A program made the translations under genes and the position numbers. From Dictyophora rubrovolvata (lineage: Eukaryota > Basidiomycota > Agaricomycetes > Phallales > Phallaceae), in NCBI GenBank assembly GCA_029959195.1, contig CP114124.1, positions 1 to 64,000 of the forward strand: a DNA stretch of 64,000 nucleotides, written 5' to 3'. This document shows, in pieces, positions 20,225 through 57,830 of the stretch (the stretch's first letter is position 1; the number at the start of each line of letters is the position of its first letter). The notes under the pieces were generated by a model. It was not told the DNA's origin. It saw only the letters and a list, made by a program, of their open reading frames with translations, and searched no databases.

Positions 20225-20570
20225 GGGACTTGTTTCGGGGCTTGGCAGGAATTTCGGAGTTTTAATTTAACTTGTAAATCCGGAGTAGCATAGTCATCTG
20301 TGTAAATTTCAGTATTTTGACTCCAGAGAGCTCAACTCTGTACCAAATCAGAAATAAAAAAACATGGGTAGAATATTTTTTAAATCTCTATCGGCATGCC
20401 ATGTCGCTTAAATAAGCGCCCATACTCGCTTAACCGAGTGTCATCCAAACCCGTCCTCATCCATCCATCACTTACTCTCTGATTTTCAAAGGGGGAAATA
20501 TACCATAAATAGCTATTAAATCCCCTAATTGAGAATACATATTTATTTACTATAATTCATATGACGGCAT
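20225..20570 (+). repeat. Subtelomeric repeat family, copy 4
   Basis: Same order of elements as copy 1: a CTCCAGAGAGCTCAACTCTG module with an A-rich segment, AATAAGCGCCCAT, then a near-palindrome CTCGCTTAACCGAG with one mismatch. The core follows: GTGTCATCCAAACCCGTCC, CATCCATCACTTAC, TTTTCAAAGGGGGAAATATA and AAATAGCTATTAAAT, with a TATTTATTTAC tail. It lies 16 kb from copy 1 and has the same orientation. Confidence 0.7.
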
Positions 20571-34664: not shown

Positions 34665-35489
34665 ATGTCTCTGGATCAAATCAAAGCTTCTGTGCAGCAA
34701 GGCATTGCCTCTGTAGCCTACGTAGGCAATACCACCCCTACTCAAATTAAAACGGCTCTGAGTTCGGTGTTGAGTAACGCGGTACGCTGAAGTTCTCATG
34801 CCGTATGCGTAACTCTCATTGAGTACACGTGTATTCTTAGACTACAATCCACGCTTCTATCCGGGAGATACCTACCAGCGAAATAGCCTCGTCGAAGCTT
34901 CTGGTAAACATGGATACTTGTTGCAATCTTATATGCATTCATCTACTGTCACTTTGCCACAGACCTCGGCTGTTCCTCAAGGAATTACACTAGCGGTTTG
35001 TGCCAGCAGAGTCACCTCTTCTCTTAAAGCAAAACGTTTTTCATAGTTTTCATCAATACCCGATAACTTATACTACATGTCATAGACCCTTTCAGCACCC
35101 CTCACACCTGACGACGGAACAGTTCTGCTGGCCACTTACCAGGCCACGCGAGATCAGCTCGTTGCAATCTTGCACGAATACACCATCAGGATTCCAGCCG
35201 TGGAGGCAAATATCCCCGGACTAAGCCAGTTCACTCTTTCCACTTGTCAAAGCATTTCGGATGTGAATATTTCTTATTCCAAACGTCTTGATGATTTACT
35301 AATGCAGCCAATCACAGGATCTTGCTAAACACCTTGTTTCTGGTTCTCCAGTAAACCATTTTCACAACGCGACTTTCGATTATAACTGAAGTGTATTCTC
35401 AGTCTAACATTCCCCGACGTGCTTATGTGGAAGTACAGGACAGCATCACTGCCGCTGTCCAAAAAGCACAGGCTTGTCTTTCCGCTTAA
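34665..35489 (+). CDS. Small helical protein, unrecognised family (copy 1)
   Basis: About 180 residues from six exons, rebuilt by comparison with its paralogue at 54.7 kb. Exon 1 (34665-34781) starts MSLDQIKASVQQGIASVAYV. Exon 2 is 34841-34903 and exon 3 34963-35035. The next acceptor that keeps the frame is the TTTCAG near 35096, giving KPPLTPDDG; the nearer CATAG would lead to a stop. Later conserved words are YTIRIPAVEANIPGLSQF, LSTCQSISD and SNIPRRAYVEVQ, with a stop at 35489. The product is Ala/Ser/Thr-rich and mainly helical, with no signal peptide, no membrane segment and no Cys pattern. I do not recognise the family. The length and helical pattern are faintly like fungal hydrophobic-surface-binding (HsbA) proteins, but without secretion. 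Function unknown. Confidence 0.7.
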
Positions 35490-35763
35490 GAGTCTGAATG
35501 ATTATCGTTGATGTCGTTTCTTATTGAAATTGGGTCTGAATATTTTGTCGATGGGACAAATTGCAAAAATATGTCTGACCTTTTTGTACGAGAATTTGAA
35601 ATACAAAAAGCGATCAAAGAGTGATTTACAATGTGACTAGATTCTAAAAAAATATTTTTTTCATGTGAGTGGAGAAAGACTCTACGGTAATGCAACGCCG
35701 GAAAAGATAGTTAAATAGTCCATAGTAGAAGAGACACGAAATGAATGGATATATACAACGTAG

Positions 35764-38700
35764 TCAGTACGAAAATATCATAAGCCAAGGATTGAGAATG
35801 ATCTATAAAATAATGTCAGATTATGACATTGGGTCCCCCAAAAAACGAAACGTACAGGATAAATGATGTGGGAGCCGGCGGTGAGTCTGGCGGAACATCG
35901 GATCAATAACCTATCACGCGGGGAAATAAAGTAGACACGTACGCCAAGGGGAACACAACCGCCCAATTAGTGCCAGGAATTCGCCATTCGGGGGGAATTA
36001 GGTCCGTACTCAAGATAATCATCGCAAATACCACGGCGAAAGAAAGGACGAACGACAGCCAGAAGCGTTTGAGAATCCGCGGTCCTTCCAAGAAAAAGTT
36101 GGATCGCTCAACTTCTTTTTTAGTTGCCTGCCATTGCATATTGTACGAGAACAGATGTGCCAACAGCGCCTTCGAGAGATGAATACCAAGGCCCCCGAAA
36201 AAGAAGAAGCTAAATTGAAAGTAGACGGATCAGAAGTCGAAGACATAATTGTAATTGATCTGGCTTACAAGAATGGGAACCATTTGAAATTTTCCCAAAG
36301 AGCAGCGAACTGAGATGGTGTATATAAATGAAGAGTCCGATAAAACGACTGGCAGTGAACGGTGAACTTACAAGGTTCCTCTGACCCAAGCGATATTCTA
36401 GCAGCGAAAAGCCAACATTTCCTAGACCTGGGAAAACGACCATACAGGCCAACCAAACTTCCCAACTGCGCAAATAATAGCCGTCGATGGTGAATGTGAA
36501 ACCAAGCAGAATGTAGTTTAGTAACGACAATGTGGCGCCAGCAGCGATACCGTCTATAATAATCATAATGAGCGCGAGTTTTCCTAACTGCCTGGAAGTT
36601 TGGCTTACAGTAGGAAAACATATAGGCCATCATACTAATTTTGTAGTGCTTTTCAAGAATGTCATTACCACACATGCACCCGAAAATTATCGACAAACTT
36701 CTTACCAATGGTGCGCCTGACCAGACGAACTGGTGTAACTGCGGATTGATGGGTCCTTTCCTCCACCAATCAATCAAGGGGTTAAAGAGAAGCCTAATAC
36801 AAAAAACTCAATAATAAAAGAAGTATTGTACGAAAATATGCCCACTCATTGCAGCCATACGCGTATTTTTCCCACCTGTTCAATTCATCATCACAGGTTA
36901 AGGATACACCCTCTTTGAAACCACCATTAGAATATGAAGCCCAACGAATGGTGTAGCCCTTCATTTGTAACCTTAAAGCCATGTCGAAATCTTCGGAGAC
37001 ATTTGATTCAGACCAGATCTTTTTTATTCCGTCCAGCTTGTCGACGAAGGAGGCATCTTGAATGGCAGACCAGCGAAGGAAGCTGTAAAGATTGAAAAAC
37101 AAAAAACGCTGCGTCAATGACGTAATCAAAATATCGAAATCAGAAAGAATTCGCACGCGTTATGACCAACGAAGGGGGCGACTTCGCCATTGGCACATGC
37201 TAAAAAAGGAAAAGGAAAAAAGATGACTGGGAGACCGAGAATTAGCATATTGCTTCAACATACCCATCGAGATACACCTGTTGATCCTACGCGTGAAATG
37301 CGCGATACCGTTTTCAAAGTAATGATGGGCGACTTGCATCACATCACTTTCATGTTGGATAATAGCAACTTCGGGACTCTCCGCCAATTCACGGGCTGCG
37401 TCTCTGAAACAATCCTCCGGCACAATAGTATCGGAGTCAACGATGAGGATGATCTCCCCAACTCGTATAGCACGACCGTTAGCAGCCCAGGTCATCCAGC
37501 GACGACCATTTTCTTCAAACATTTCTTCAAGTGCCATCTGAAGGGCGCGCTCTTCAATATCATTGTTGTCCAAATATTCTGTCTCGTCCGTAGCGGCAGT
37601 GGCACCGCTTCGCGCCGAGTCTCCGCTTCCACTCAAATGCGCAGGTGGGGGAGGGGTGAGGTTGGAGTTCGAATTTGTTGCCGAATTTGAAACTTGAGCA
37701 GCCTGAGCCGCGTTACGCTTTTCGAGAAAGTAAAGCACGAACTTCTCCATCTTCATGCTCAAAGCTAAACCGTGATTCATATTGCTGGCCTTCTTGAATC
37801 TACCAGGGCGAATAAATCCAGACCCTAGCGGATCGTGCCTAGGTCGGGCAACCCAGCCGATATTATGTTGGGCATAAAACGCCTGTCTCGCCGCTCGTTC
37901 TGCCGGGGAGATAAGCTAATTGTCCGAGTTAGATAGCTCAACAGAGCATGAACTGAAACCCCCAAAACACAAACCTGCATTCCATCATCATTAACAAAAA
38001 TAGTGGAAGACCCCCCTTGTCTCGCGTAGGTTTGCATAGCTTTTTTAAGAGATTCCACAGACGGTGTACTGAATAAATTTCAAGGCATGAATAAATAAAA
38101 ATTGGCAACTCAAAATAAAAATTGCTTACATCGTTTGTTCCAAGCTTTCCTTGTAAACCGGCATTTGAATTGTAATATGAGGCAGCCTTTCGTCCAGGGC
38201 CTTGTTAGGTTCTGGTTTGACAGCAGAGTAGTACTTGGAGTTCTCATGATATTGAGAAACCGGGCCAATGCAGAAGCAGATGTTGCCGACGAGTTGAATG
38301 GTGAAAAACAACGAGACGCAAAAAATGAAAGGCATAGTGATGATAAGAAAGAATCTGCGCCAGTCATTATCAAGACGCCATTCAACCAAAAGCTCCTCTG
38401 CAAGATATAAGTATCTACGAAAAACAAGAAGACCTGGAGAAACGTACCCAGACCAGTAGCCACGAAAACTGAAATAAATAGCGGATAAGATCATGATGAG
38501 CGTGAATGAACAAACAAAATGCCTTACAGACTGATAATGAGCATCCTAATCCACCATAGAAAGGAGCGAGCAGCTGTGTCTTTCGTTTAACCTTTGGCGA
38601 ACCAGCTTCTATCTCGTCGGATTTATTAGGGACGACATGACCAAAGCCCCAACAGTTTCTTCCTCCTTTCACTTTGAAAGGAAGGGTTTTAATGCCCGAG

Positions 38701-39714
38701 ACCTGCTTTTCTTCGACAACAGGAGCAACGGAAACTATGGCGTTGGCATCAAGACCGCTACCTTCAGTATTTAATTTGGCAGAGGAGACATCCGGGGAAA
38801 GCGTAGGAGTTCCTGATTTGAAGGAAGATACATCTACGCTCACTGGCGAAGTGAGTGAACGCATCACCAACCGGGTTAGATTCCGTTGAAATTCATGGCA
38901 ACTGGGTATGATAGCGGTTAAAGAATCCGACCAGACTACCATAACCCGCTCGTCTCTCTGCGTGAAATGACGTGAAATAAGAAAATGTTCCTTATACTAA
39001 TGGTCACATCGATAGATAGACTGCTACTTACGATGAAAGCAGCACACTGTTCTTTGTCAGCTCGAGGTAAGCGAGTCATCGTATCCAGGATTTGAATACG
39101 GGTCTCGTCATCAACGTAAATGGCGTTCGCGGTAGGAGATCTGTCGAGATGTAAGCCACATCAGCATCATTGTTACTACGCGCGAGCAAGAAAGTGAGGA
39201 GAGACGATGTGGAACACGTGATCGTAAATAACGGCATAGCCCAAGGCTTGAAGCCAATCGCCATGGAATATGCCATACAGCAGCGTCACCGTATTGAATG
39301 CTGAGTGACAGCCACGTCGGACACAATATAAAGTGTGGCAATGGCCGTAATCGCTGATAGGAGATGAGAAAACAACGATTGAAAATAAACTTACACGCTG
39401 GCTAGGGCAGCATGAACAGCAGCACTCCTCACTTTGACAGCGACGACGGGGTTAAGAGCCCTAACTGCTGCTTCGAACGGAGCTAAAGTCATATTCTCAT
39501 AGGGAAAGACTCGATATTTGGCAGCTGGGAGTGGCTCGGGTTGCCCATTAGCTCCAATGCCTCCAGGAGTAGAATGCTGGACTACAGGATCAGACACACG
39601 AAGACAAACACCAGCAGCTAGATTTTCTGAGAGAGGTTTAAACCACGCATCCCCTTGCGTCTCCTTGAAGATATGATGCAGAATAGCATCATATGCGTCG
39701 TAATCCGTAGCCAT
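35764..39714 (-). CDS. GT2 membrane glycosyltransferase (chitin/cellulose synthase-like)
   Basis: Processive-type family 2 glycosyltransferase of the plasma membrane, of a group widespread in Agaricomycetes; the polysaccharide made is not established. The start at 39714 gives MATDYDAYDAILHHIFKETQ, then FRVFPYEN-like YRVFPYENM and APFEAAVRALNPVVAVKVRS. An intron of about 250 nt leads to ANAIYVDDETRIQILDTMTR. A Ser-rich linker and membrane segments precede the catalytic part: HITIQMPVYKESLEQT, FVNDDGMQ, LIVDSDTIVPEDC (DxD, near 37430), SESNVSEDFDMALRLQ, and LNRWEKYAYGCNE (RW motif). Several membrane spans follow, and the end is ILNPWLMIFSY with a stop at 35764, reached by two small introns near 35800-35940. 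Every expected motif is present, so it looks functional. Confidence 0.9.
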
Positions 39715-39719
39715 GATTA

Positions 39720-42700
39720 TCGATGAAGACAAGAAGCTCTGGCGGTGGGGGTACCAAGGATGGGGTGGTTTCTCTAGGGAGAAAACGATAGTAATTTTTC
39801 CGGAGGGGTATAAGAAAGAATCGGAATACAATGGATACTAAAGACAATTGACAGCGCTATGATGATATCGATATCCACGGGCAGGAACAGCGTAAAGGGA
39901 GGTGAAAACACCGAATAGAAAAGGTCCTGGTACAAATAAGTGCCTAGGGATTGCCATGATCAAACAACACAAGCATGGAAGTTCATTAAAAAAGAATAGA
40001 AAAAATAAAAATAAAATAATAAAATAAAAGTCCACTTTTTACAGGCACAGTGGGGATATTGAAGATTCTGTATTTGGTAAAATCCTGAAAAAGAATTTAA
40101 AGTATCCTGAAAAATCTAGAGTGAGGCTAGATATGTATTGGAAGTAAAAATACTCGATCTATCAAATCACATAAACCTGAAAAAGAGGGCGAGACAGAAC
40201 AACAACCATGGGAGTGACAGAAGCAAACCGGTAACGCGCAACGTTTCCAGTGCGCGTGGCGTTTTCAGCTCCTCACGGCTGTGATCTTCGGCATGACCGG
40301 CTGCTTCAACCCCTTACCCCTTCCGATGCCCTTTTATTTGACAGTTTCTGTCATCCGTGTGAATCTTCACTTTCATGTGTATAATACACGTGCATGGCTC
40401 ATACTATGTAAATGAATACTAAATGAGGGTGATTACCTTGGCATAAAGGGAAAAAAGATTATAGATAAGCTCCCCCAAAAGCTTCTCTTATCAGCAATTA
40501 ACTAGGTTTTTTGAAAGAAAGCAAAACACACCGGTGCACGAATTGTATCGCACGAGATAGCATTTCACGATCACAGGCGGACATTCCCATAGATCTTTTA
40601 ATCGTCTTCCTGATTTCGAACAAGTTTCTCATGTCTCATTTTGATGATCTATTATAGGGAGCCGAAAAATAGGGCGATCTCCTTACTCTCCCTTCCATAC
40701 CCAATATCAATATCGATATTTCTCTTCAATACATTTATTCATGCCTTGAAATCAGTGCTGAGTAGAAGTTTATCATAATTAGTTCACCGTTTAAACGTCG
40801 ACCCACCGACCACTCACACGCCTTGTCTCGGTAACATCTGTCCGACTAAGACCTCGCGTTTCATGATTGATCCAGCGTTGCATCAAGAAGTTCTGTCGGC
40901 GACATAAGGGCAATGTGCTTCCCAGGGCACACTCAATAGCAATGGGTGTAGATCACCGCTTATCCGAAGTATTTGCGATAGACTTCCTGCTCGTACCTCG
41001 GAAAGCTGGCTTATCGTCAAGATTGTGATTGACTGGTTGACGTTTCTTTGTTCGGCCAATGAAATTGTTCCTTCATATCCCCTCATATTCTTCAGTCTGG
41101 CATTCCACTTGAACCAGCGGCTTACGAAGTCTTTATAAATTCATTACGGCTCGATTGAGATTTGCAGGTGTTGTTTCATGACGATAGATGGCATCGTGTT
41201 TCTATTTATATCTCTCTTTCTACCGGAAAACGGGAAGGTGTCTGATCCACGGCCATGGAAAAGCGATGTTATGGTCATGAAAATTGGAAGCTAAAACTAC
41301 GGAGTACGCCACTACCGACACATTCATATCGAAATGGAGGTCCTTCGCTCTTTTCTGAGTTAACTTTGTTCAGGACCAAAGCAATGTAACTAGCCTGAGC
41401 TGTATTCTTGAAAAATATGAAGTTACATATAAGATGACCGACTTAGGCCGGCTGACTTTAAAAAATATCTACCTTTCAAATGAGCCTTCCTATACACTAA
41501 TAAGCCATTTTATTTTGAATATTTCACCTCCAAACCAGGGGAGGGAACGCGGAAGACGGTTGAATCCGAGTGCGTCTCATTTCGAGACACGACATTTTCA
41601 TTAATCTCATAGAAAAAGGAACGGATATCTTCAGATCACGATATCCATGAGCTATTACTTAACCATTACCGCGCCTTAATTTTACAATCATTTCACGTAT
41701 ATGGTCGTCTATCAACGGAACGTCAGATACTTTCTAGTCCAACAACCGGTAGCCTGCTGCTTGGGGCAAAGATAAATCGGGAAATCTTTCAGTCCATCTT
41801 ACACAGAAAAGGGTCTCCAATTTCCCATGAAAATACGATGAAGGAGGCAATTAAACAAAAAACTGACGGGAAAATATCACATGACACCAGTTCCACATAA
41901 CTTTACAGCGGCTGGGGCTTCTCTCGGACCAGAAATGCGTAAGATTGCGATCATTTGGACTTCAAACATTCCGTCGCTCCTTCTACCAGGAGGCGACGTG
42001 AATATCGAGGATGACTGTAAGCTTTAATTCCGACTCGAAGTTGAACTATTAATTAGTCGTCGACAACTGTTTAAATGAAAAGAGCAAGGTCTCGAGGGCA
42101 CAGAAAATGAAAATGCACCTACCGCTCATACTATATCAACATAGACTCGCTGAATGCCCCTTGGTGAGTCTCGAATCCTATAACTGGATTGACCGATATT
42201 AGTGACAGTTGTGCCTTCTCATATCCAGTCGAAGTCGCATAAAAATAGCCAAAGCCATTCAGAAATATCATTTCCAGAGATAATTTACCAATATTCAACC
42301 ACCCTCCGGTAGCGTACAGTACTAGTTATCAACGACCTTCCTTTGGCCTTCCAATTCATTCAAGGATTACTAATTTCTCAATGCACCTAAGCATCATGAT
42401 CGCGAGTGTAATATTCCTTATTCGACTCGTGCTGTGCTTTTTTAAGTTATCAGGTAACTTTCTGACACCTCAAATAATCCCAAGATCAAAGAGCACTATC
42501 CGAAGCTGCATACTTGACCAAGCATCTTGATTTCCTCATTTGATCTTATCAAACATGGCTACTAAAGTGGAAACCCGGTGTGTCAGGACTAGACCTTCTC
42601 GTGCTTCGCTATCTCGTGCTTCGATATTCCAAAAGTCTTATACTATTTGCACGGATATGGGAGAAACAATGTCAAGTCATTAGCGGCTCCGGCTCGGGTG

Positions 42701-43120
42701 GGCAACGCCTTTCGAATTCAACCCGGCCTTTAAATTACCAGCCTTGAGCATGAAGAAATGAAACACCTCGATCGCATGATGCATCTCGAGGTTGTGTTTG
42801 TTTTGGGCTGCACGTTAGTCAATTATCGAATCAATGATCACTAACTCCACTCAGTTGGATAGTTGCCGTTCTTTCAAGGAACATAACGCGTTAGTGAGTT
42901 TTTCTCTTTCTATAAAACTTATGAAGGCCAACTGTCAACGGCGCACAGGTCTTCTGACCATCAAAAGGCGGATTTAAATTGCGAAAACTCGTCGACGTCA
43001 CCTGGGCGGGAGACAACTTACAGCGTTAACAGACAGAGCGTGATACAGCTCTCTGTCATGGATAGAAAATTGAGAATCGAGGACTGTCTAGATGATGCAA
43101 AATAGATTTTAAAATTACAG
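39720..43120. other. Long gene-free stretch
   Basis: About 3.4 kb with no frame longer than about 70 codons, on either strand, that resembles a protein. The first 300 bases hold the probable GT2 promoter, including an A-rich tract near 39986-40030. No repeat family copy was noticed. Many scattered TCG/CGA words suggest unique rather than transposon-derived DNA, but this is only an impression. Confidence 0.45.
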
Positions 43121-43122
43121 GT

Positions 43123-43936
43123 TTATTCATGCCGAGACGTATACACAGCGAGAAGTTCAATTAATGATTCGTCCACACCTTGCTTAATCTGGGCAGCTTC
43201 TTCTTGAAGTCTCACCTTTTAAAATTCAATCACAATGGGGCGTGTATAAGAAGTGAGACGTACTGGAAGATAGTCAAAAGAGTCAGTGACTAGCCTCTAA
43301 GAGAAAATAATTAGTATTCCAATCCACACTGGCAGCCTAGGGATCAGGAGACAGGTACCCACGTGGTAATTTTTGATTAGCCTTTTTAGATTATACGATA
43401 CTACTTCAAGAGCACCGACAAACCGGAACTTGTCGATAGCAGGTTTTCTAGCTATGAATGCTTTTATGAGTTGTATAAGCGGTGTCGCAAGTGCCTTGAG
43501 TTTCGGATAGTATCCCTCTACTTGGGAAGCTTCTGCCTTCCGAACTCTCTGTTTGACGTCCATCAATCCACATTGCCATGTGGATTTATCTACTCACTTC
43601 GGCATATGTTGCGGTCTATTTTTGGTATCAAATAATGTCCCAGTTAATGTATCTAATAACTCACGTCTTCCAGTATTTGCACTAATTTGACGACTGCCCA
43701 CAGTAAACTCTGGTTTTTCATATGAGAAAGCGTTTTAGGCATTTCAATAGACTTGCCTGCGCCTGTAAAATAGAAGGCTTGTCTATGGAGAAAGATGACA
43801 CCGATCTTTCAACGCGTACAAGTTGTACAACAAGGCGCTCCCAAAGCTGAGCCAGTTTAAGGATATCCTCTTCCAGTTTTTCGGATGCAGAGGATCCTTG
43901 AGGTAATTGGAAGGTTGCGACTGGTGAGAGACCCAT
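43123..43936 (-). CDS. Small all-helical protein with a GC-AG intron
   Basis: About 190 residues from six exons. The start at 43936 reads MGLSPVATFQLPQGSSASEK, then LEEDILKLAQLWERLVVQLV and SSFSIDKPSILQAQ. The first intron (43710-43756, 47 nt) has a GC donor (CAG|GCAAGT) and joins to SLLWAVVKLVQILED. A micro-exon (TATYAE) leads to RVRKAEASQVEGYYPKLKAL, FIARKPAIDKFRFVGALEVV and LKRLIKNY. Two more short exons give RLVTDSFDYLP and VRLQEEAAQIKQGVDESLIE, ending ...TSRHE with a stop at 43123. All joins are in frame. No signal peptide or membrane span is seen. The family is not recognised. The C-terminal QxGVD helix is reminiscent of the 34.7/54.7 kb small helical family, which may be a distant relative. 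Confidence 0.6.
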
Positions 43937-44283
43937 ATTGCAGGTTTGAACTGGAAAAAGAAAGACAGTTAGGGGAGTAAAAAAGCAGATATATACATGC
44001 GCCCAAACGGAGAGCGCTGAATTGCGACACTCCTATTCAATTTGTTTACAGTTTGCAGCCTATGGCGTTAGCTATGGACTTACCTGGCTATTAACCGGAT
44101 GTGTAATGAAACCTGATTCGTCCAAATAATTTGGGTTCAGCTCAGCTCGTCATGTAGGGGGTGGGGTTTGGGATGTGGGAAAATTGGTGGAAATGGCAAA
44201 GCTGTATTAATCTAAAGAAAAATATCAGCCACCAGGGGTACACGCCCAACTTGGGAGGCATGTTAGTTTGACGTTGTTCAGCT

Positions 44284-44345
44284 TGAATTCAGTTTTCTAC
44301 CCAGCTTTCTATTCAGTTTTCTACCCAGCTTCTATTCAGTTATCA
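44284..44345. repeat. Tandem duplication, unit about 26 bp
   Basis: Two and a half near-identical copies of a unit containing CAGTTTTCTACCCAGCTT followed by TCTATT. It is non-coding, and its size and purity suggest a recent slippage duplication. Confidence 0.8.
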
Positions 44346-45337
44346 GCGTCTAATCTTAAACAGAATGTTGTGATTGGGTATTGCAGGTGAGGTGAAAATA
44401 ACCTGACTCAGTTCGGCGTGTAGGATTAGGAGGTCTCTGCACTTGAGAAGGGACTATTGCCCCTAATCTTTTTTTATAGAAAAAATTGCTATTTTATTCC
44501 CTGATTTTACATTCACGCCTTGTCAATGTTTTCCAGAGTAGATTAGTCACTTCAAACTTGCAGGTCGATACCGACGAACTACCTAAGACTTCACTTTGCT
44601 TATAGTCCCACTTTTCTTCATCGAAGTGAACATGCATAAGCACTGAGGACCAAGTTCCTCGTGTCAGAATGTACCTTAAAAACGAAACCATTGTGTACAG
44701 AGTTCAGATGAAGGTATGACGCGTGTACGGTATTGGTAGGTTCGGCACAAGCCAGAGGACGCGAAAACAATGTCACGGTGACTGCGCGTGGCCGTCTGAG
44801 TTTCAATTCGGAACAGCGGCTCGGTACGAACCTCAAACACGTGACGCGATGTAACGACGTTTGAACAGCGACCGACCGATTAGCAGGTTGACCGACAAGT
44901 CGTGAGTTCTATGCGTGCTATATTGACAGCTTTCGGTCCTTGATATCCTCGTTATAGATAGCAAGTGACAAAGTATTTGTTCGACATTTAGAAGCAGCGT
45001 CTGCTGGACTTCGTTTATGGAATACTACCTGTGGAAAAGAATTCGTTTTATTGGTTCATCGGCTCAATATCTTTTTCTACTCCGGATGTATAGCCGCTGA
45101 AAGCTTCATAGTGAAGACTTGACAGATAATTACACTCATTGACTCGGAATATTTGAGTACATTAAATGCTTTATCATTGAAAGAGCAAGATCAGAAGATC
45201 GGTGATGTTTCCGCAAGTGGTGCATGAAAAAGGCACGTATTTGTTTCTGCATAATTATAACTGCTGAGAGACAGAAATGATTGACAGTTGTGTGATTTTT
45301 CAACATTCAAATATGGTCGGATGAACAGCCGGAGCGG

Positions 45338-45373
45338 TGTATGTCGTATGTCGTATGTCGTATGTCGTATATC
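45338..45373. repeat. (GTATGTC)n heptamer microsatellite
   Basis: Four perfect and one imperfect head-to-tail copies of the 7-mer GTATGTC in intergenic DNA. No link to a neighbouring gene is apparent. Confidence 0.85.
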
Positions 45374-46647
45374 GTGCATATCTGAATGGTATAATGATGG
45401 TACCTTTGTGGCATACGAACATTTGCGACATATCTGAATCTCGTGTAATATCATTTGGCTGCGCCCCTATCTGTACCGTGTTGTCGAGAAACATTTGATA
45501 TAAGTTGTAGGAAGCGTGAGTTTCTCAAAACTGTAGTGTGTATTTGTTTCTGGGATGGGCATCTCGAGTGAAAGGGAAAGTGCCGATTTGTTTGCTTTTA
45601 TATCGATGACATTTTACCAATACTTTGGATTGTCGAAGGTTCATACACCGTGCTTTGGCACACGTACAACAATCCAAGAAATGCGTATCAAAGGAAACGT
45701 AAGTCGAGATTTTCTTGATCATGGTGAGTTTCGCTCTTTGGAGGGGGCTTTGACCCAAGAGGAGCCTACAAAATACTCAAAGGATGAAACCACGCTTGGC
45801 GTCTTGAAAACCTTACAATGTTGCAATGCCCATTAATTATCGACCTCTGATTGGGCCTTGTGGGACGCCGTAAATCTCCGTATCACCAAACCTTCTAACA
45901 GGAATGATGATGTATCAGCGTTCAAGGTAAAAAGGAGGCTTTTGCACTCAATGAGGGCAGCTTAAAAGATGGTCTGAATTGGAAAAAAAATCACTGGTCC
46001 CGTTATCTAGGTCATCTTATTATCGATACGATTGCATATCTGAAACTACACCGGGCGGACCAGAGTGGAGACTGACGCGTACTGACGGATCGAAGTGTTC
46101 TCAAGTATCCCAGGATATCCAGGATACATTTCTCTCATCCTCCACCAAACCATATCATTCGACACTTTCGTCAACTTTATACGCCAGTGCACAGTCATTT
46201 GTCTAAATAGAAACACTTTTGAATGGTATCCGAGCTATCATATATTATTTTATCTAACAGTTGGTTCTTAGTAGAACTTGATTCGCGACGTCAAAACGGA
46301 AGCCTCGTCTTGCTTCTATTTCTTGACAGGATCCAACAATGGGTTCCCCTGAACCTTTCATTGACGTTGTACCTGTTAGATGTTAACTGATCCTTTGTGT
46401 ACAACTGTCTTTGCAAGTATTCTTCTGGCCCTCGTAGTCCCACGCTCGTTTGACGTATGTCATTTGGAAGAAATGGTATCAGACGGTGGTGCTATTTTTC
46501 ACTTGATAAACAATGATCAAAGGTACCGGTTCCATTAATGTCGAAATAATACTTCCGATTTTACCAAGCCGAAAATGTTAATTTCAATAAAAAGGAGGAG
46601 CCTCTATCTAGGACCCAAAAACCAACTCTCAAACGCCTTGCACTCTC

Positions 46648-49574
46648 ATGCTACAATCACAAGAGACCGGCGATCCCGTTCTTCCCTCTTCATCACCTTA
46701 CCTTGAAGTTCGCTCTCTTGACCCTCCGATTATTACACAATCACCCTCCCGCGCTCCACGTCATCGTGCCTCAGTAACTTCTTGGCCAGTCTCATACGAA
46801 GTTCATGAATTTGGACTGGGAGGTCGCGACAGTCGACCTCCTCCAATTACAACAAGCAATGAATCATCACAAGAATCACTCACAAGTGCTGGGCGAAACA
46901 TCAACTACCCTATACTGAGCCAGCTGCACGTGACACAAAATCCTTTCACTACACCTCCCTCCACTCCCTCCGCTTCTGTAAAGACATTCACTGCCCCCGT
47001 GTCTGTAATATCTTCAGAATCCCAGTACTCCCTTCCTTCTGGTATCAGCACTTCTATCGAGTTGTCACGAGCCACTTCCTCTTCTAAATTGAATACTGTC
47101 GCAAACAATAGCTCTTTGTTACCCGCAGAATTGCGAAATTCTAATGCCAACAATGGTCCTCTCCTCCAACGACGTGCTCACCGCGAACGTTCTTTCGCGA
47201 AGGGACACACATCCCTCTCTCTTTCCACTTCGAATATCAACCTCAATTTGACCCCACCCTCAAGTCCGCCTGCGACCTCTGATCGGAATTCTCACCGTGA
47301 TACCTTTGCATCTCCGCCTGCGTTTCCTCCTGCAGTTGCTGCAATTGTTACATCCGGAGCCAGCACTCCATCAACGCGTACCGCGTCTACCAAGCAGGTC
47401 AACTCTTGGCGTATACCAAGTACTTTGAACGATGAAAAAGGCTTTTTAGTCGACTTGTCTGGAGTTGATGAGTCTTTGAAGGCAATCAAAGCTCAAGGAA
47501 GGGACATTACTCCATCTGAGAGTAGTATCTCTCTTACGGACGGCTACTTTGTCATGGAAAAGGATCATGACGTTCCTATTCGGCCGTCCGCGCTTCTTCT
47601 CGGAAGTATCCACAAGCCTTGGTTAGAGAACAGAGATTGGCGCTTGGCAGCCAGTTGGTGGATAACTTTTGTTTGTCACCCCGTTATTGAAGCTTTCATA
47701 TACTAAATGAAAATCACAGTTTCTGACGTTGCTTGGATTCGGCGCCGCCGCAGCCTACTGTGTAGTTAACTATTTCTCCGTCGATGTCATAACTAGTCCA
47801 CTATGCATGGTTTTGGATGAAAACTTTGATACACTAGACCTCAACGGCACCTGGTCCCGAATCGTGGACATGAGCGGGTTTCAGTATGTCTGCCTCATTT
47901 TCCTTTCATCGACTTGTTTATCCAGGAACTTTATTTTTCCCTTAGGAATGGAGAATTCGAAATGACAACTGATTTTGACAATAATTCATACGTCAAAGAC
48001 GGCGTGCTGTACATAGTTCCCACATTGACTTCCGAAGTCATCGGTGTCGCCAACGTTTTCGATGCTTTCAGCTATAACGTCACTAATTGCACGAATACAA
48101 TGGACTTCAATGGTGAGAACGCACTCGCCATCTGACGAAACCTGATTTGATACCGTTCTTATAGGCTGTGGCGCCGTCAGCAATGCGACGGCTGGCACTG
48201 TGATCCCGCCAATTATGACAGGACGGCTAACCACTCAATTCAGCCATAGCCTAACGTACGTTATATCTGGGTCCATTTTTTGAGGAAAGAAACCGACATC
48301 AAACTATAATAGATATGGGAAAGTCGAGATCAGAGCCCGAATGCCACAGGGGTATGTATATTTATTCATTTGTGACATACCGTTCCTAATGAATTCATCC
48401 AGCGATTGGGTGGGTATGATCACATGAGTGTACAACAGATGATCAGACTAAATTGTCTTTTTAAAAGATTTGGCCCACGCTATGGATGTTGCCAGTTAAT
48501 AATACATATGGACCTTGGCCTGCCAGTGGTGAGTAACTGAACTATGGATATCATCATCTGGAACGTCATATTTATTCCGCCTTCAGGGGAAATTGACGTA
48601 AGAAATTCTAAGAAGCCCTTACGGAAACGATGATTGATCAACTATTCTATTAGATTGCATTTTCAAGAGGAAACGGAATCACATATGCGGGAGAGTAAGT
48701 TGATGGGTTTTTCATCCCAAATGATGTCAAAGTAAAGCTATCCCCCGTTTTTAGAGGACAGAATTTCATTCGTTCTTCGCTTAATTGGGGACCGACGGTC
48801 ACTTTGAATAGAGAATTCAAGACTTTCGGCGTATGGTCAAATCGTCGAAAGTCATTTGCCAATGATTTCCATACTTACACTCTGGAATGGACGGATAAAT
48901 ACTTGTGCGTACTACTACTAGATTTCGCTAATCCTGCTAATTTCATTGAAAATGAACCATTAGGCGTGTATATATCGACGCCCGTACCGATCGTTCTCTC
49001 GAATTACACTTTAACACTCCCTTTTTCAATCGTGGTGATTTTCCCGATCAGATCATGAATGGAACCGCCACAGTTCCTCTGGAAAATCCCTGGGAAGGCC
49101 GTGGAAATTCGGCACCATTCGATCAACGTATGTATCCTGTGTTCAAGGACTTAAACAAAAAAGCGCTTCAATTCAGCATTTAACCTACATCTTAGCTTTC
49201 TATTTGATTTTGAGTTTGTCAGTCGGGGGGTATGCTATTTCTTTCTATCTTTCCTCTTAAAGAAAGGTTTCTCAACGTTCAATGTTAGCACGGATGGCAT
49301 CTTTCCCGACAACGTGGGAGGCAAACCTTGGCTAGACGCTTCCGAGAGTATGTCTTCTTTGATCCCGAAGATTGAGTTGTAATTTCACTATTAACTCAAA
49401 CTCAAATAGCCGCTATGAGGGAATTTGCTCTAGCCCAAGACCAATGGTATCCCACTTGGCCAGCAAACCTTGAAGAACGTGGTCTCGCTATGTGAGTTTC
49501 GAATTTTCTTGGTCGAACCCCCATCCTAATATAGCCGTAATAGTGATTATGTTAAAATGTGGAAACTCTGTTAG
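46648..49574 (+). CDS. KRE6/SKN1-type beta-glucan synthesis protein (GH16), catalytic Glu missing
   Basis: Type II membrane GH16-like protein of the KRE6/SKN1 family, needed in yeast for cell-wall beta-1,6-glucan. The N-terminal about 330 residues are Ser/Pro-rich and cytosolic. A small intron after WWITFVCHP joins FLTLLGFGAAAAYCVVNYF, the membrane span. The lumenal part follows: LCMVLDENFDTLDLNGTW, GEFEMTTDFDNNSYV, YGKVEIRARMPQ, then GEIDIAFSRGNG. Later pieces are SSLNWGPTVTLNREFKTFGV, DFHTYTLEWTD, YIDARTDRSLELHFNTPFFN, LSVGG, and DYVKMWKLC before the stop at 49574. All exons join in frame. The GH16 signature should be ExDxxE (family usually GEIDIMEARGNG). Here the second Glu is Phe (codon TTT at 48660-48662, after the 48597-48653 intron). 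The fold looks intact but the active site is altered. Confidence 0.9.
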
Positions 49575-49805
49575 TATGAATATGGACAATTTCATTTAGA
49601 GACTATTACAGATTATATAAATATATATAAACCTTCCTTACTAAAATCATTCATTGTACATTGATACTACTACAATCACAACATATAGAGGGATTATCCT
49701 CGATCACTCATGAACACATACAATATGATTGCCGACACTGAACAATAGTCAACTACATGGATAATAAAACAAACACCCTTTCCACCCGAGGAACAATAAC
49801 CACCC

Positions 49806-52309
49806 TCATAAAGCAACCACAGTCAAGGGTAACTCAGATTTACGAGTTTTGGAATCTTTCACCCTAAGGACATCGATATCATGGTATATAAGAAGCCAGA
49901 CAAAGCATGCATAGAAGATAACATACATTGGAGTCATTAGACCAGTTGCTGCTCGGATGATTTCTACATTGCCCGGTGGGGGCAGAAATTCGAAATTCTC
50001 CAATAGCTCAATTAGAACGGTCTGCATTTCAATCATGCTGGTGGAGCATAGGTAAGAAACATTTCTGGAAAAGATTGGATATATGAGATGTGGCTACATA
50101 CGCAAAACGCCAGCTGTTATTCCCATGAACCAAAGCCAAGATAATGTTATCTGGTGTTAAAATACTCACCCGATGCAGCTTCTCAAGCCGCTGCTAAATG
50201 TAGCACTAAAAGGAAGGAAAATGAGAAGGGATTTAAAAAGTAAAAATTGTATTACACATTAGCTGTTACACCCAAAGCAGTAGTTTGATGTCCTTCGACG
50301 CCTTCCAAAAACCGATATGGTCTCCATACATCAGCATCGTCTCCCCATGCCGATTTTAATCTGACCAGATTATATATTCTGTTACTCGTAGTCAATAATA
50401 CTATAGTTTTCAAGCTACCTATGATATCCAGCAATGGAAAGCATGACTCTCTGCCCTTTCTTTACAGAGACGGAAGTCAGTGTTTTTCCGTCCTTCGACT
50501 GAATCGGAAGGGATAATGGTATCAAATCGTCTTTAGCGGCTGCGCGCATCAGTGTGGTGACTATCGGATGGTAGCGCAGTGTTTCCTTGATTGAACGAGA
50601 CGTAAGCTTACCCAACAGAGAGTAGAAAGCTATATAATACCTTCATCAACGCCAATAAGCACTTCATGGAGTCTAAATCTGCTACGCTTAATTCCGTATC
50701 GCCTCTTTGAGCTGCTCGAGCTCGAGTGGCGGCAATTTCCTCACGAACCTCCGTCTGAAATTCCCGGTGTCGAGATAATTCGTACAGTGCCCAAGTTATA
50801 GTATTCGCCGTTGTTTCATGTCCTGCTAGATTCATCGTTCTGTCGAGATCATTCCTTGGTTACAAACAAACTATCGTTCAAGAAAGCGCGACAAGAGAAA
50901 ACATACGTCAGTTGACATAAAATCTCCTCGTCAGAGAGTTTGTTAGCGGGATTCTCCGAGAAATTAGCCCGAACTGTGGAAAAGAGCTCAATAATCTCAT
51001 TCCATGAACATCGAAAAAAGAGATCATACTCAGAATGCTCATGACATCCTTTGATCCCTCTTTCCCGGCTTGAATTAATCTCGATTGTCGATCTAAAATG
51101 GACTGAGCAACTTCTCGAGCGATCTTCATATATTTTTTCAAACGTCGCATCTGGGGATTGGGAAGATTGCGCATCATAGTGTGAGTCCATTCTGGAAGTC
51201 GAGATAGCAATTCTTCAAACAAAACAATCCCATCAGTGCGTTCGAAGAATGTATCAGCACTGCAGGAATAAATTTAAATAGGGACAAATTCAAGCATCTA
51301 AGTTGTACCTACAAAAGGTTATAATATGCTTTCAATAATGGATTTGTTCCATCTTCAACTGCGTTGAATTGATAGTCAAAAGCGGCTATTGCCCACATAG
51401 AATGACATTAGTAAAGTGTAAGCTAATAGAGTCATTAAGACAGACCTGCACCAATCGCATCAAGAGTCGTCCGACCCATCCACGGGTGGATGTCAATAAC
51501 TGTGGGAGAATTGTTATTGCTCGCAAGTGTCTCTTTGAACTTTCCAACGGTCTGACAACAAAGAACGTTGTGAACTAGAAATTTAACAAAATTAGGTACA
51601 GAGCTAACCTTCTGGACTGTATGTCTAAATAACGGTAAGAATGCTCTCAATGCACCGTATGAGAAAGCAGGATTCATAATTTTCCGCTGACGGGCGTGCT
51701 GTTGGCCTAAAGATATGTTAACAAATATACACGCGAAATTTATTGCATCTCTCCATACCTTCTGCCCATGCTATTCCCTTTCCGGTAGTTAAGGCAACAG
51801 ATATGCGTGTCTCTGGAGGCTTGGGATAGTTATAGCCGGAAGTGTTAAAGACATGTTGTAGGGCCTGAATATCGCAAATAACGTGAAATGGTTTTGAACT
51901 AGTCATGAATCATCTTACCTTTGGATCCGCGGTAAACAGGAAATCTTTCTAATAAAGCGTTTTTCGTCAAAGTTCGTCTAGTATACACTGACATGTCTAT
52001 GACTTACACCAAGTACACCGTGGACGCGCATCGTAGGGCCGTATTCACGAATCCATCCAAAATCCAATTCCACTATTTCCTTTGGTCTAAGATATTCTCC
52101 GAAATTACCTTAATAGAATTGAGGGTCAGGAGTATAATGCTGAGAATATCTTATGCAACCACGCTAAGTAACATACCGACAAGCCAAGAAACAGAAGGCG
52201 GTCCTTTCAGTTGTCGAAGCGAACCATATCTAAAATTTCGAAGCTTATACAGTAAGTATAATCCTGTTATGAAAACAAGTAATGTAGTTGGCGAAAGTTT
52301 CAATTCCAT
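49806..52309 (-). CDS. Cytochrome P450 (B)
   Basis: Second membrane-bound P450, paralogous to P450 A and in the same orientation. The start chosen at 52309 (MELKLSPTTLLVFITGLYLL) gives the usual anchor and a KGPPSVSW hinge; an upstream in-frame Met would add a Ser-rich tail encoded by a G-rich repeat and is less likely. The I-helix AGHETTA lies at 50826-50806 and ETLRYHP at 50585-50565. The expected PERF appears as PYRF in VWRPYRFLE. The heme loop FSSGLRSCIG is at about 50198-50170, split by an intron whose next exon gives WRFA. The last intron (GTATGT after LMTP + AT) leads to VKDSKTRKSELPLTVVAL, with a stop at 49806. The 3' gene is 231 bp from the end of the convergent KRE6/SKN1-type gene. 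Substrate unknown. Confidence 0.9.
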
Positions 52310-52311
52310 GG

Positions 52312-52350
52312 ACGAGGGGGAGGGGGAGGGGGAAAGGGAAAGGGAAGACG
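52312..52350. repeat. (GGGGGA)n purine repeat
   Basis: A run of GAGGGGGAGGGGGAGGGGGA followed by AAGGGAAAGGGAAG on the plus strand, just upstream of the P450 B start. It could form a G-quadruplex in the promoter or 5' leader. Confidence 0.75.
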
Positions 52351-52612
52351 TACCGTTATTCCCACCCGTTTTTTTCGATTTTTGTAGTGGTCGGCTCCAC
52401 GTAAAGTCAAACTTCAGTTTACTTCGAAAACCACTGATTGGATGTGGTGCCAGATTAATGAAAGAACTTTGCGGTCTGGATGGTTGTTTCAAGCACTTCC
52501 ATTGGTTTTAAGTTCCGATTGACAGATGGTTTTTACACATGATACAGACCAAAAAGATTAGTTCTCTTCTAAACGATTGGGTAAACGTCAATATCTACGA
52601 ATCAGAAGATGG

Positions 52613-52953
52613 TTAGCCCAGAGATGGGAAAAAAAGAAAAAAGTCTAATGAGGATGGGAATTGATTTTACTAATGACATGACCAGACATACCTTGTCGAT
52701 AAATCGCGAAATCAATTAGACATAGCGTAACTGCTGAACGAACGGCAGCAGCCTGAGGAGGATTAAGGCGGTGAACACGAAGAACCATTTCGTACAACAG
52801 GTGATGGCGCATCGTGAAACATCTTTCATGCTGAAAAAACCCTAACAGCAACGAAGACAAAAAAAGGACATTGCCAAACGGCGCCAATTATTGCGTACTT
52901 ACTGGAAGATTCTGCCAACACGGGTCGTAGAGGCGACCGTGACATTTCGACAT
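52613..52953 (-). CDS. Tiny hypothetical protein
   Basis: Start at 52953 (MSKCHGRLYDPCWQNLP), a GTAAGT donor and a TTAG acceptor, then GFFQHERCFTMRHHLLYEMV followed by RLNPPQAAAVRSAVTLCLID and FAIYRQ. A possible second intron (GTATGT...TTAG) ends the protein at 52613. Without it the frame stops at 52645. The product is about 80-95 residues with no recognised domain. The consistent splice sites are the main support. Confidence 0.35.
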
Positions 52954-53449
52954 TGGTCGCTGCCGACTCTCATAAACGATTAAAAAGGGTTTAAGGAAAA
53001 ATAACATGGGTGGGATTCCATTGAGCAAGCGTGAGTGACTCGGAGCGTATGTGCCAATGCGGAGTGAGCTAACTTTAAAAGCTCGTCCAACCTAACCCGA
53101 CGAAAAAGAGTGAGAAATATGAACAGCTTCGCGAGAGCGCCACCCTGTCTTTTTCCGTCAAATGGTGGAGAATGTCAACATGTCGCTGGCGATGGTACGA
53201 CCTGGTATCATCCGCGCTGGTGGGCGCTATCCGAGTCGGAGTCGTCCTCTGGCTGTTATCTCTTTTCTCGTATCTTTAAAAGCGCCTATACGTATTCATC
53301 AAACTTCGATTACACGGGGACATACAACTCTCAGTTGTTAGCTCTGAAGGCCTAAAAACTCGCAACATATTCAATTTATCGAGAAAGCTTACGCTATTCC
53401 CTTGAGGGTACTTTGCCCAACTTACAGTCGCATTACTACAGGAGTACAT

Positions 53450-54040
53450 ATGCGCGTAGCCCAAATCAATGCATCTTTACAAGCGCTTACGTCCGCCAAC
53501 TCGTGCCAAGTTCTCAAGAAACGCGGCTAACAATATGCTGAACTTAAAGAGCAAGTAAGTTCTGCCTTAGACGACATGGTATGTCAGGAAACCATTATTG
53601 TTACTGTATGTTGGAGGGTATGTTGGAGGTTACTAACCCAACGAGACTGCTCCAAACCAATCAATCCACGTAGAGTCAATATCTCCGTATTCTCAATCAT
53701 AGTAATGGCTAAAACAAAAACTAATGCTGTTTTCTTCTCCTAACATGTCGTGTGTATATCTGTAGGTTATTCCGCAAAAAATCATGTTGGCGATATCCGC
53801 TGACAAGACTAAGAACTAAACATGATTCTTCGTTTGAAGAAGGAAAGAACTGTTATCCATCCTTCAGGCGCAGCGTGGTGAGTCTACTTCTTTTCACCAA
53901 GCCTCCAGGTTTAAACCATTAAACCGTTAATGAGCCTAATATCCCCAACAGCGAAGTTGAGAAGATGCGTTCAGATGTCGATAGAGCTCACCCGAGAGTA
54001 ACTTGCTCCGTTGCGCGTCTGAAGTTCAAAATTGTCTGCC
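53450..54040 (+). pseudogene. Small helical family, degenerate copy 2
   Basis: The start at 53450 (RVAQINASLQAL) is nearly the same as copy 3 (SVAQINAALQTAL). After 13 or so residues the text diverges and a TAA occurs in exon 1 at about 53528. Later homologous pieces are VIPQKIMLAISA (near 53765), an interrupted T-H-D-S-S-F-E-E-G block near 53820 corresponding to the TPEEG region of copy 3, LLSILQAQ, and NIPNSEVEKMRSDVDRA (about 53944-53994). The central IRVPAAEAAIPG segment is missing. I read it as a decayed tandem duplicate of copy 3, 1.2 kb upstream in the same orientation. Confidence 0.6.
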
Positions 54041-54044
54041 GATG

Positions 54045-54655
54045 ACCGAGACCATTGCATTGCGACTAAACCGATCACGACCGCTGCGACCTTTACGACC
54101 TTGTGATTCCCACAATTTTTACGAATACATATGTACATCTTTTCTTCACTTATGGCGAATTTAGCTGTTTTAATTCAAAAAAAGGAAGATCCCAAGGTTA
54201 TATAGATTTAAACCCTATGATAAGATTTAGCCTCTTTGTTATTTCAATTGACGCGCCAGTATCTCTTCAGTATCCCTTCATGGATATACATATGTATATT
54301 ATCTCTAATTCAACAAGAAAACAACCACTAACGCTATTTAACTTAATTCTAGTTTTACATAGGTAGGCCGGAACGGTTAGAACCAGGAAGTCTACCGGAC
54401 TTTGCTCGGCGGCTGGTATACACTCAAAGAATTACCCCTTCATGGTACCCAGTAACCATCAATTGAAAGAGGAGTTCGTACATGTCCTTTAATGTTGTAC
54501 TGTTTTCAGTCCAATCAAAACCCGTTTCTAAAATACATGTGAATGATAGCGGCCGTGACTTGCCCAGTGGAGATAAAAGGATGGTGTTGGCTGTATTTTC
54601 TTCGTGTCGTCTTTTTACCGTCTTTACCAGGGTCACGAAATTCTAAGACTCATCG
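54045..54655. other. Spacer between helical-family copies 2 and 3
   Basis: AT-rich in its first half. It holds the promoter of copy 3, with a purine/pyrimidine-rich leader directly before the ATG at 54660. The small frames on both strands show no domain. Confidence 0.4.
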
Positions 54656-54659
54656 CATC

Positions 54660-55486
54660 ATGTCCGTAGCCCAGATCAATGCTGCTTTACAAACGGCTCT
54701 TGCATCTATCGGATATCCAAGCGGCAATCCCACCTCTGCTCAGCTCAAACAAGAAGCGAATTCTATCTTGAGCAATGTGGTATGTTGTGAAATTAGCGTT
54801 TATTGCTGCGTGTATCTGATTTAATATTGCTAAACTCAAGACCGCTGCAAATAAGTCAATTCAAGCTTTGCCTACTTCCAATATCACGGTAACCCAAATC
54901 TTAGTAAGTTAAGTTTTTTTCAAGAATTATTTTCATTCCTATTCCGCCCGTAATAGGCTATTGTTCCACAACTAATCACATTGGCCGTCTCGGGTGTAAG
55001 AGCTACTTATATCGCAAAGGTAGGAGCCTTTCAAGTATATTTCCCGGCTTCGGTCCCATATTATTTCTAGAAACACCCTTCTCCTTTCACGCCTGAAGAA
55101 GGAAACGAGTTTTTTCCCATCATCCAGAAAGCACAAGCACAACTCGTGGAGGGTTTGAACGCATGTGCAATCAGGGTTCCTGCTGCAGAAGCTGCAATTC
55201 CCGGAATTAGCAAGTTTGGATTGTCAACATTCAAGGGCATTATCGATGTATTATAACTTATATGGGAAAAAACCCTGCTTAACTGACCAATATACTCTTA
55301 CAGCCTCTCATCCAAGCACTTCTCGCTGCTGCACCGGTAAGCTTTCACCTTTACAACTTCTCGCCCGCCAAAGCTCAAAGACCAAAACATCCCAATTAGC
55401 CAAACATTCCAAAAAGCACTATTCAAGAATTGCAATCGGGTGTTGACGTAGCATATAAGAATGCGCTTGCTCGTGTTCCTGCCTAA
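54660..55486 (+). CDS. Small helical protein, unrecognised family (copy 3)
   Basis: Six exons, about 176 residues. Exon 1 is 54660-54779 (MSVAQINAALQTALASIGYP). Then come TAANKSIQALPTSNIT, AIVPQLITLAVSGVRATYIA, and KHPSPFTPEEGNEFFPIIQ. The best conserved segment is AIRVPAAEAAIPGISKFGLS, followed by PLIQALLAAAP and finally PNIPKSTIQELQSGVDVAYK, ending ...ARVPA with a stop at 55486. All donors and acceptors are GT/AG with in-frame joins. Shared words with copy 1 are PTS, VPQxITLAV, LTP/FTP followed by two acidic residues and Gly, and IRxPAxEAxIPGxSxFxLST. There is no signal peptide, membrane span or metal site. Composition is Ala/Pro-rich and helical. The family is not known to me and its function is unknown. 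Confidence 0.75.
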
Positions 55487-55777: not shown

Positions 55778-57830
55778 TCAACCTAACAGAGCCTTAGCTG
55801 CCTTTTGAGCATTGTTTCGTAAAGTTTCGACCTGCAACTCAAGTTCACGGATTTGCACGCGCGCGTCCCGTAATTCCTGATTTAGTTGTGCATTCTCTTC
55901 GCGAAGGGCTGCAGCTCCAGAATCTGTGCTTTTCGTAGACGGCTATGAAAGATAAAAGGTGTCAATAAGATGCAACACGGACTAAGAGATTACTGACATT
56001 GCCATTGGCAAAAGAGTCTTCCTTCTGGATAACAGGCGCCGCGGGTCCGGGTGACAAGACAGATGGGGAAGACACCTCTTGAGCTTGAGCAGTAGACTTT
56101 GATGCAACGGGAGAAGTAGAAGTTAGTTGGACGGATGGAGAAGTCGAAGATATTGTAGAAGAGGCAGCGGCAGGAGCAGCCACGGGAGCTGAGGCAGTCA
56201 AGGTTTTGGTGGGTGGTGGCGGTAGAGAGCTTGCAGAGGAAGAGCTAGAAAACACACTTGAGGTCCCGAATTCGTAGAGTTTGGGATTCACGGTCTTCCC
56301 GGTGAAGAATTCACCAGCTGTAAGAGCTGGTTCTGCTGCCTGAGCGGGTGGATAGATATCAGGTTGGAAAGTATCCGCCTATCGATGATACTTGTATAAG
56401 AGTTTAGTTTCTGTCATATATGAAGAAAACCGAACCTTTCGGGGAACAATAAATGTTATAGGTTCAACGGCCGTTGCTGTCAGCTTGTATGCACGAGCAA
56501 TCTCGCATTCCGAGACATTGAGTGCTCGTCGAGGTAAGAAACACATGCCGCGTTGAGGCTCGGTTGATTTGTGTTCCGCTAGTGGATATAACGTATCTGA
56601 TTCCCATTCGTAATAACGAATATTGCCGTCTCTGTATTAAAAACCCACTTTGTTGAGAAGACTATTGGACCAAACAGAACGACAACTTACCCCTTCCCAG
56701 CTGAAACGCAAACAAAGGATGGATAAAGGTGCCTTTCGTCAGTAAACCGAACGCAGCTCCAGTTGAGAACATGATGGAACTCTCACCCAAAAACAGAATG
56801 CCATTATCACAGTAGTATGGCATCAAAACACCAGCCGACTGGTCGACAGATTGCCGCTTAATAACATTGAGAGACCCAGTTTCCCATACAACGACTTCCC
56901 TATCGCTCATCTTGCTAAAGCCGGTAGTAGCAATGTTGTCCTTGTCGCCCATCCATGTCGCTCTGGCACCTTTGATTCCAGAATGACCATCAGCAGTCCT
57001 AACAGCATCTCCTCCAGCACGGGCATCGAATATCCTGAGCTTGCGGTCGCGACATGTCGTGACCATCAGAGTACCAGTGTAATTGAATGCGATGGATTGG
57101 ATGGTGTCATTGTGCCCGGAAAGAACGCTGCGCGGTGCGTCGGTGTTCCCTATATCCCAGAGTTTGACAACATGATCTCCGGTAGCAGTAGCAATGATAT
57201 GTTCAGCCGTTGGATGGAAGAGAACTTGACCGACTTTACGAGCAGAGACATGAAGACTGTCAACGGGATTGAAATCGATTGGAACCCATTTCTCTGCACC
57301 CCACCCTTCGAATGCATCATCGGATATTTTCCATATGAAAACATTGCCATCTTCACCGCCTGAAGCCACGATGTTATCATCAAACGGAGACCAGGCGGTA
57401 TCCAAAACTGGAGCGGAATGTTGTCTTGCAAGGGGTATAATGTCGGGAAGTCTGGAGGGAAAACTGGGAGATGTGCCAGTCAATGGTGAAGGAGCGGGTA
57501 AAATGGCAAAGGCACCGCCGCCTGATGAGGTCCAATTGATACTGCAATATTTCTAGAATGGAGAAAAGGCATGAGATTTAACGACATCGATAACAGATGT
57601 TAATCAGAAGAATACAAAAGGGATCTTACACCGGATGCTGCAATAATATTGGTGTCCCATGCGTTTCCAGAGACTTTGAGATTATCTATACAGTTTTCCC
57701 TTTTTGCAGATTGACCGTAAACATGCCTATAAAATAAGACAAAGCAACGTCAAATGACTCAAATCCACGCACACCAGAGCCTGAAATCAGCAACTCACCT
57801 GTACTTTGAGGCTCTGATAAACCGAGACAT
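55778..57830 (-). CDS. CRN1: Coronin, actin-binding WD40 protein
   Basis: Coronin binds F-actin and Arp2/3 and regulates actin patches. The start at 57830 gives MSRFIRASKYR at the first exon end. The next exons read HVYGQSAKRENCIDNLKVSG, NAWDTNIIAASGKYCSINWT, then the beta-propeller: LDTAWSPFDDNIVASGGEDG, VFIWKI, VLFHPTAEHIIATATGDHVV, KLWDI, and SIAFNYTGTLMVTTCRDRKL. PYYCDNGILFLGESS follows with the coronin-specific GDGNIRYYEWES-type strand (near 56610-56640), RGMCFLPRRALNVSECEIAR and ITFIVPRKADTF. A Ser/Pro/Ala-rich unique region and a C-terminal coiled coil (ALREENAQLNQELRDARVQI) end at the stop, 55778. Domain order and length are normal. This is a single-copy housekeeping gene and marks the normal chromosome arm. 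Confidence 0.93.

Follow-up and report, generated by a model that had tools for sequence, protein, structure and literature searches.

A leaderless, duplicated sister branch of the HsbA family in the basidiomycete Dictyophora rubrovolvata

The 64,000 nucleotide (nt) stretch analyzed here, hereafter the window (contig CP114124.1 of Dictyophora rubrovolvata assembly GCA_029959195.1, positions 1 to 64,000, forward strand), contains two intact genes and one decayed remnant of a family of short, probably helical proteins that lack a hydrophobic leader and are related to HsbA (hydrophobic surface binding protein A), a known fungal family of secreted cell-wall proteins with a signal peptide. An earlier note on this DNA had described them as three copies with a six-exon structure and a common motif. 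Spliced profile alignment produced an intact gene model encoding 180 amino acids for copy 1 (34665..35489, + strand), with exons at 34665-34781, 34841-34903, 34963-35028, 35086-35262, 35318-35350 and 35403-35489 (117, 63, 66, 177, 33 and 87 nt). Copy 3 (54660..55486, + strand), delineated in the same way, also encodes 180 amino acids, and its exons are located at 54660-54779, 54841-54903, 54957-55019, 55071-55247, 55304-55336 and 55400-55486 (120, 63, 63, 177, 33 and 87 nt). The exon borders of the two correspond, all introns are in phase 0 and the proteins are 41% identical. As gene models, copies 1 and 3 are genuine six-exon genes. Intron 3 of copy 1 (35029-35085) is of the GC-AG type, and the six-exon match requires a GC donor at this position. 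Other splice choices for this intron, namely a non-GT boundary and phase-1 and 90-nt alternatives that were judged by eye, were set aside, the spliced alignment having chosen GC-AG in phase 0.

Copy 2 (53450..53991, + strand) is a truncated pseudogene remnant that retains collinear parts of exons 1, 2 and 3, the start of exon 4, and exon 6. The corresponding blocks lie at 53450-53485, 53536-53591, 53677-53705, 53767-53805 and 53835-53867, and the remnant of exon 6 at 53935-53991. The exon 1 remnant contains an in-frame stop codon, exon 5 was not found, and most of exon 4, including the part encoding the motif, is gone; the motif core is absent from all six frames of region 53300-54200. Two of the blocks are significant on their own, exon 1 (E 4.6e-6 to copy 3) and exon 3 (E 0.001 to the family member on contig C11). 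The remaining DNA blocks (E 0.024-0.07) do not outperform 20 shuffles, which reached 0.024 at best; their collinear order was the reason for accepting them. Since copy 2 has neither six exons nor the motif, the trio proposed earlier consists of two copies and one remnant.

The motif, IRxPAxEAxIPGxSxFxLST, is encoded within exon 4, at 35185..35244 in copy 1 (IRIPAVEANIPGLSQFTLST; + strand, position counted from exon 4) and at 55170..55229 in copy 3 (IRVPAAEAAIPGISKFGLST; + strand). In a slightly relaxed form it is indeed common to copies 1 and 3, and it is found in these two only of the nine intact members of the family described below, although its residues E122, P126 and G127 (numbering of copy 3) do not vary among the nine. 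When exon 4 of copy 3 (59 amino acids) was folded by itself, with copy 1 as alignment, two helices were predicted, spanning residues 8-42 and 46-58, at moderate confidence (mean predicted local distance difference test score, pLDDT, 69.3; predicted template modelling score, pTM, 0.40). The term helical that had been given to the proteins is thus supported, at least for exon 4. In this prediction the motif of copy 3 runs from the end of the long helix through a PG turn into the beginning of the second helix; provided that the prediction holds, the motif is a structural rather than a catalytic feature.

The family extends beyond the window, which lies on contig C8. We searched the complete assembly (28.2 Mb, 11 contigs), and the member counts given here are lower bounds. 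At least seven further intact members are present, two on C6, four on C7 and one on C11, all of which were modelled as intact six-exon genes; together with copies 1 and 3 this brings the number of intact members to nine. Spliced alignment of the two-copy profile to the seven other loci gave scores of 160-436.5, and the maximum obtained by chance, for 60 random stretches of the window aligned to the nine-member profile, was 24.4. The four C7 members are clustered within ~95 kb, a region that also contains an isolated last-exon fragment of the family (C7:1970458-1970541, - strand). The count of three copies therefore understated the family. Gene architecture is conserved: all 45 introns are in phase 0 and 48-88 nt long, and 44 of them start with GT; exons 5 and 6 measure 33 and 87 nt in every member, and exons 2, 3 and 4 measure 60-69, 63-66 and 174-177 nt, respectively. 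The nine proteins have alanine contents of 9.4-17.9% and pairwise identities of 21-79%, and they are short and without a hydrophobic leader, as had been described. The additional claim that they evolve quickly is borne out by their divergence but not by their substitution patterns. The nonsynonymous rate (dN, NG86 method) was below the synonymous rate (dS) in all 34 computable pairs (of 36), although most dS values are saturated; examples are 0.127 versus 0.481 and 0.363 versus 0.559. The leaderless family is under purifying selection.

In Pfam scans, seven of the nine members matched the HsbA family (PF12296), with E values of 1.2e-6, 5.3e-5, 1.3e-4, 0.0014, 0.0059, 0.039 and 0.044 and a best score of 29.4 bits; the curated cut-off of HsbA is 33.5 bits. 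NCBIfam gave just two weak matches, each to a single member (best E 0.079), and no relative was present among 39 pattern matches obtained when viral contigs were searched with the C11 protein. A direct search of the genome with the HsbA profile (E up to 10) detected six loci, one of which was above the cut-off in a single exon; the same search also gave matches below the cut-off in two of 14 bacterial or archaeal control genomes. Four of the six loci were modelled, C8_183k, C4_a (at C4:61.5 kb), C4_b and C6_1685k, and the two loci on C5 are absent from the alignment and the tree. The proteins of C8_183k and C4_a lie above the cut-off (40.1 and 54.5 bits), that of C6_1685k lies below it (31.2 bits), and for C4_b an exon-level scan placed one exon above it.

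These four HsbA-type proteins, which bear a leader, are 15-26% identical to the leaderless ones. Profile-profile alignment (hhalign) of the nine with the four gave a probability of 98.4% and a pairwise E of 4.7e-15 over 144 columns, and a second run gave a probability of 98.9% and a score of 111.6. After omission of the C8:183 kb protein the probability was 95.7% (E 9.2e-9, score 58.1), and 30 column-shuffled controls reached at most 0.5% and a score of 16.1. The C8:183 kb protein by itself scored 109.6 against the leaderless profile, compared with 19.7 or less for 30 shuffles. In the unrooted tree, the leaderless proteins all fall on one side of a branch supported at 100/99. The earlier statement that the family matches none known does not stand, given the seven matches below cut-off and the profile-profile result; an unknown family is ruled out by the Pfam matches, hhalign, the spliced alignment presented below and the shuffled controls. 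The profile search that the earlier note had named as able to overturn its reading essentially does place the family in HsbA, although the curated cut-off is not reached. At the level of sequence comparison, these results show that the family shares an ancestor with HsbA and is a divergent branch of a known family. Because the cut-off and the leader were both tested and its members have neither a score above the one nor the other, we regard it as a sister branch and not as HsbA proper.

Gene structure provides the strongest evidence for this kinship. The leader-bearing HsbA gene at C8:182972-183828 (40.1 bits on HsbA) bridges the two branches. Its exons measure 132, 63, 63, 177, 33 and 114 nt and are separated by introns that are all in phase 0, and its internal exons (63, 63, 177 and 33 nt) equal those of copy 3, C11 and C6_265k. 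When the leaderless profile was spliced onto this gene the same internal exons were recovered, all in phase 0, with a score of 108; the maxima of the controls were 24.4 for the 60 random window stretches and 25.9 for 30 shuffled profiles. Spliced alignment favours agreement in length, but the sites used were all GT-AG and the controls were handled identically. Models of C4_a, C4_b and C6_1685k built with the HsbA profile also contain a 33-nt exon 5 flanked by phase-0 introns, with a GC donor in C4_b; their borders upstream of exon 5, including exon 3, are uncertain, and C4_b and C6_1685k each have one phase-1 intron.

The leaderless and leader-bearing proteins differ at their N-termini. By a simple hydropathy measure (the N-terminal maximum of the mean over 11 residues) none of the nine members has a hydrophobic leader: their values are 0.01-1.42, and those of two HsbA proteins are 2.93 and 1.97. 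Of the four HsbA-type genes, these two had their leader measured, and in the remaining ones it was assessed by eye. All nine members start at an aligned Met, and where HsbA has its signal peptide they have a segment of ~20 residues, which reads MSxAQIxxSLQ... in the majority of them. In C11 and C6_265k an in-frame stop codon is located upstream of the ATG (at -6 and -21, respectively) with no AG in between, which excludes an in-frame upstream leader exon in these two genes. The possibility that an amphipathic helix replaces the signal peptide was rejected, since 8-47% of shuffles reached the observed moment in the nine proteins, which is not significant. As the tree is unrooted, we infer, rather than observe, that the leader was lost and not gained. 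Among the matches listed in a literature search, no paper dealt with a leaderless HsbA as judged by title and start of abstract, which is weak evidence as few subscription papers were covered; in the searches on missing leaders, "HsbA" appeared in the title or start of abstract of none of the matches listed.

A link to lipid binding comes from structure searches. The HsbA profile of this genome matched 5j5k (E 7.4e-17), an uncharacterized protein, 6j6f (4.9e-7), 5csd (0.0013) and 3l1n (0.0073) in PDB. We take 5csd to be a structure of the Mp1p ligand-binding domain. As far as the cited excerpts go, 3l1n is an HsbA domain of Mp1p (PMC6859710), and Mp1p of Talaromyces marneffei is a secreted mannoprotein that binds palmitic and arachidonic acid (PMC5488042). 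Taken together, we consider it reasonably probable that the family is a sister branch of HsbA that has no leader and has undergone duplication, and that its members are helix-bundle lipid binders active either inside the cell or following unconventional export. In such a scheme, the leader-bearing HsbA gene and the leaderless branch would descend from a common six-exon gene. The part of exon 1 encoding the signal peptide would have been replaced by ~20 residues in the leaderless branch, presumably with loss of the leader, and this branch would then have multiplied over four contigs. The helices of the protein may pack into a bundle whose hydrophobic groove accommodates fatty acids or different amphipathic molecules, and the protein might act as a cytosolic lipid buffer or carrier, or be exported unconventionally.

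Several results weigh against this interpretation. None of the nine members reaches the HsbA cut-off in the Pfam scan, and two of them, copy 1 and C6_120k, gave no HsbA match in it. Of the six HsbA loci, only the C8:183 kb gene can be aligned with the leaderless profile over almost its entire length; four others scored 27.9-38.8, slightly above the controls, and one (22.9) did not exceed them. Seven of the nine members have an AG between the upstream stop codon and the ATG, so that a leader exon is formally possible in these. In the PDB search with the HsbA profile, the coiled-coil streptococcal protein 8tvl (0.0016) scored like 5csd, and the weaker Mp1p matches alone are therefore unconvincing. 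Finally, the leaderless profile alone found no HsbA structure in PDB (no match for the two-copy profile, and for the nine-member profile only 7y17, E 0.51). Adding the C8:183 kb protein to the profile did retrieve 5j5k (8.6e-6), which that protein alone had already found at 1.7e-5.

A more far-reaching version would be that a domain of the HsbA/Mp1p type moved from a secreted to an intracellular setting through replacement of the signal peptide in exon 1, giving rise to a cytosolic fatty-acid-binding family of at least nine genes in mushroom-type fungi, with an origin independent of the animal fatty-acid-binding proteins. We put this forward as a tentative possibility. It appears unlikely that the proteins work outside the cell after leaderless secretion, coating hydrophobic surfaces as HsbA does. 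The homology to HsbA established by profile-profile and spliced alignment against shuffled controls would fit such a role, as would the description of Aspergillus oryzae HsbA, which attaches to the polyester poly(butylene succinate-co-adipate) (PBSA) and recruits cutinase (excerpt of PMC9394342), and the case of the aegerolysins, which are small lipid-binding proteins of fungi and are treated, by title and start of abstract, in a paper on unconventional secretion (PMC7763983); the leader of the HsbA genes is missing, however, in the leaderless members. Recruitment to a new intracellular task unrelated to lipids, for instance in development or recognition, seems improbable to us: the strong divergence of the proteins, the cluster of copies on C7 and the pseudogene are consistent with it, but every computable pair has a dN lower than its dS and no partner gene was seen. 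Nothing in this analysis points to the role in fruiting or self-recognition that had been suggested. Convergence of an unrelated helical family through Ala/Ser-rich helices, which the Pfam scores below cut-off and the low identity to the four HsbA-type proteins might suggest, is already disfavoured and highly improbable in view of the internal exon lengths and phases of a bona fide HsbA gene, the collinear profile match and the far lower scores of shuffled controls.

Between and around the copies the window contains other features. Exons at 37160-37780 and 38415-38942 (both - strand) match glycosyl transferase group 2 (PF13632) and, at a score below cut-off, DUF7928. An exon of a WD40 repeat protein is located at 56662-57483 (- strand; generic WD40 as best match, followed by a THOC3-type propeller below cut-off), and one of a membrane-bound O-acyltransferase (PF13813) at 58973-59959 (+ strand). 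Positions 4-560 form a tandem array of a ~14 bp unit, and repeats of 48-158 nt that are related to one another (families D2-D5) occur dispersed at 3883-4727, 8573-8620 and 20321-20470; they may represent a short mobile element. Genome-wide, at least 144 matches to DUF6533, a domain typical of mushroom-forming fungi, were found, which fits the basidiomycete setting assumed in the earlier note.

The family is ordinary in origin and mildly interesting in form, being a leaderless and expanded sister branch of HsbA. In the excerpts of the literature cited here, HsbA and Mp1p domains are portrayed as belonging to proteins that are secreted and serve at the surface, as effectors or in virulence; a branch that has no leader but a conserved exon structure would illustrate how a domain of this kind came to change compartment. 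With paralogues and relatives that bear a leader side by side in a single genome, the binding of lipids could be compared within and outside the cell. The results also suggest that the Pfam cut-off for HsbA misses a subfamily. According to PMC5872309, as far as its excerpt goes, HsbA occurs in all taxonomic groups analysed there and has been duplicated repeatedly in Eurotiales and Mucoromycotina. The leaderless family shares with HsbA a collinear domain and, with one HsbA gene of this genome that bears a leader, the internal exon lengths and phases, but it differs in lacking a hydrophobic leader, in scoring below the Pfam cut-off and in having an N-terminal segment and a PG motif of its own. 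The ligand-binding domains of Mp1p are reached via the HsbA profile of this genome; Mp1p, however, is described as secreted, and the leaderless profile has no direct sequence match to it. Further HsbA homologues are known from a mushroom, namely hsb1-3 of Pleurotus ostreatus. In the excerpt of PMC10876731, single disruptions of these genes are said, from unpublished data, to affect neither morphology nor lignin degradation, and HsbA is introduced there as a small secreted protein, in contrast to the leaderless members described here.

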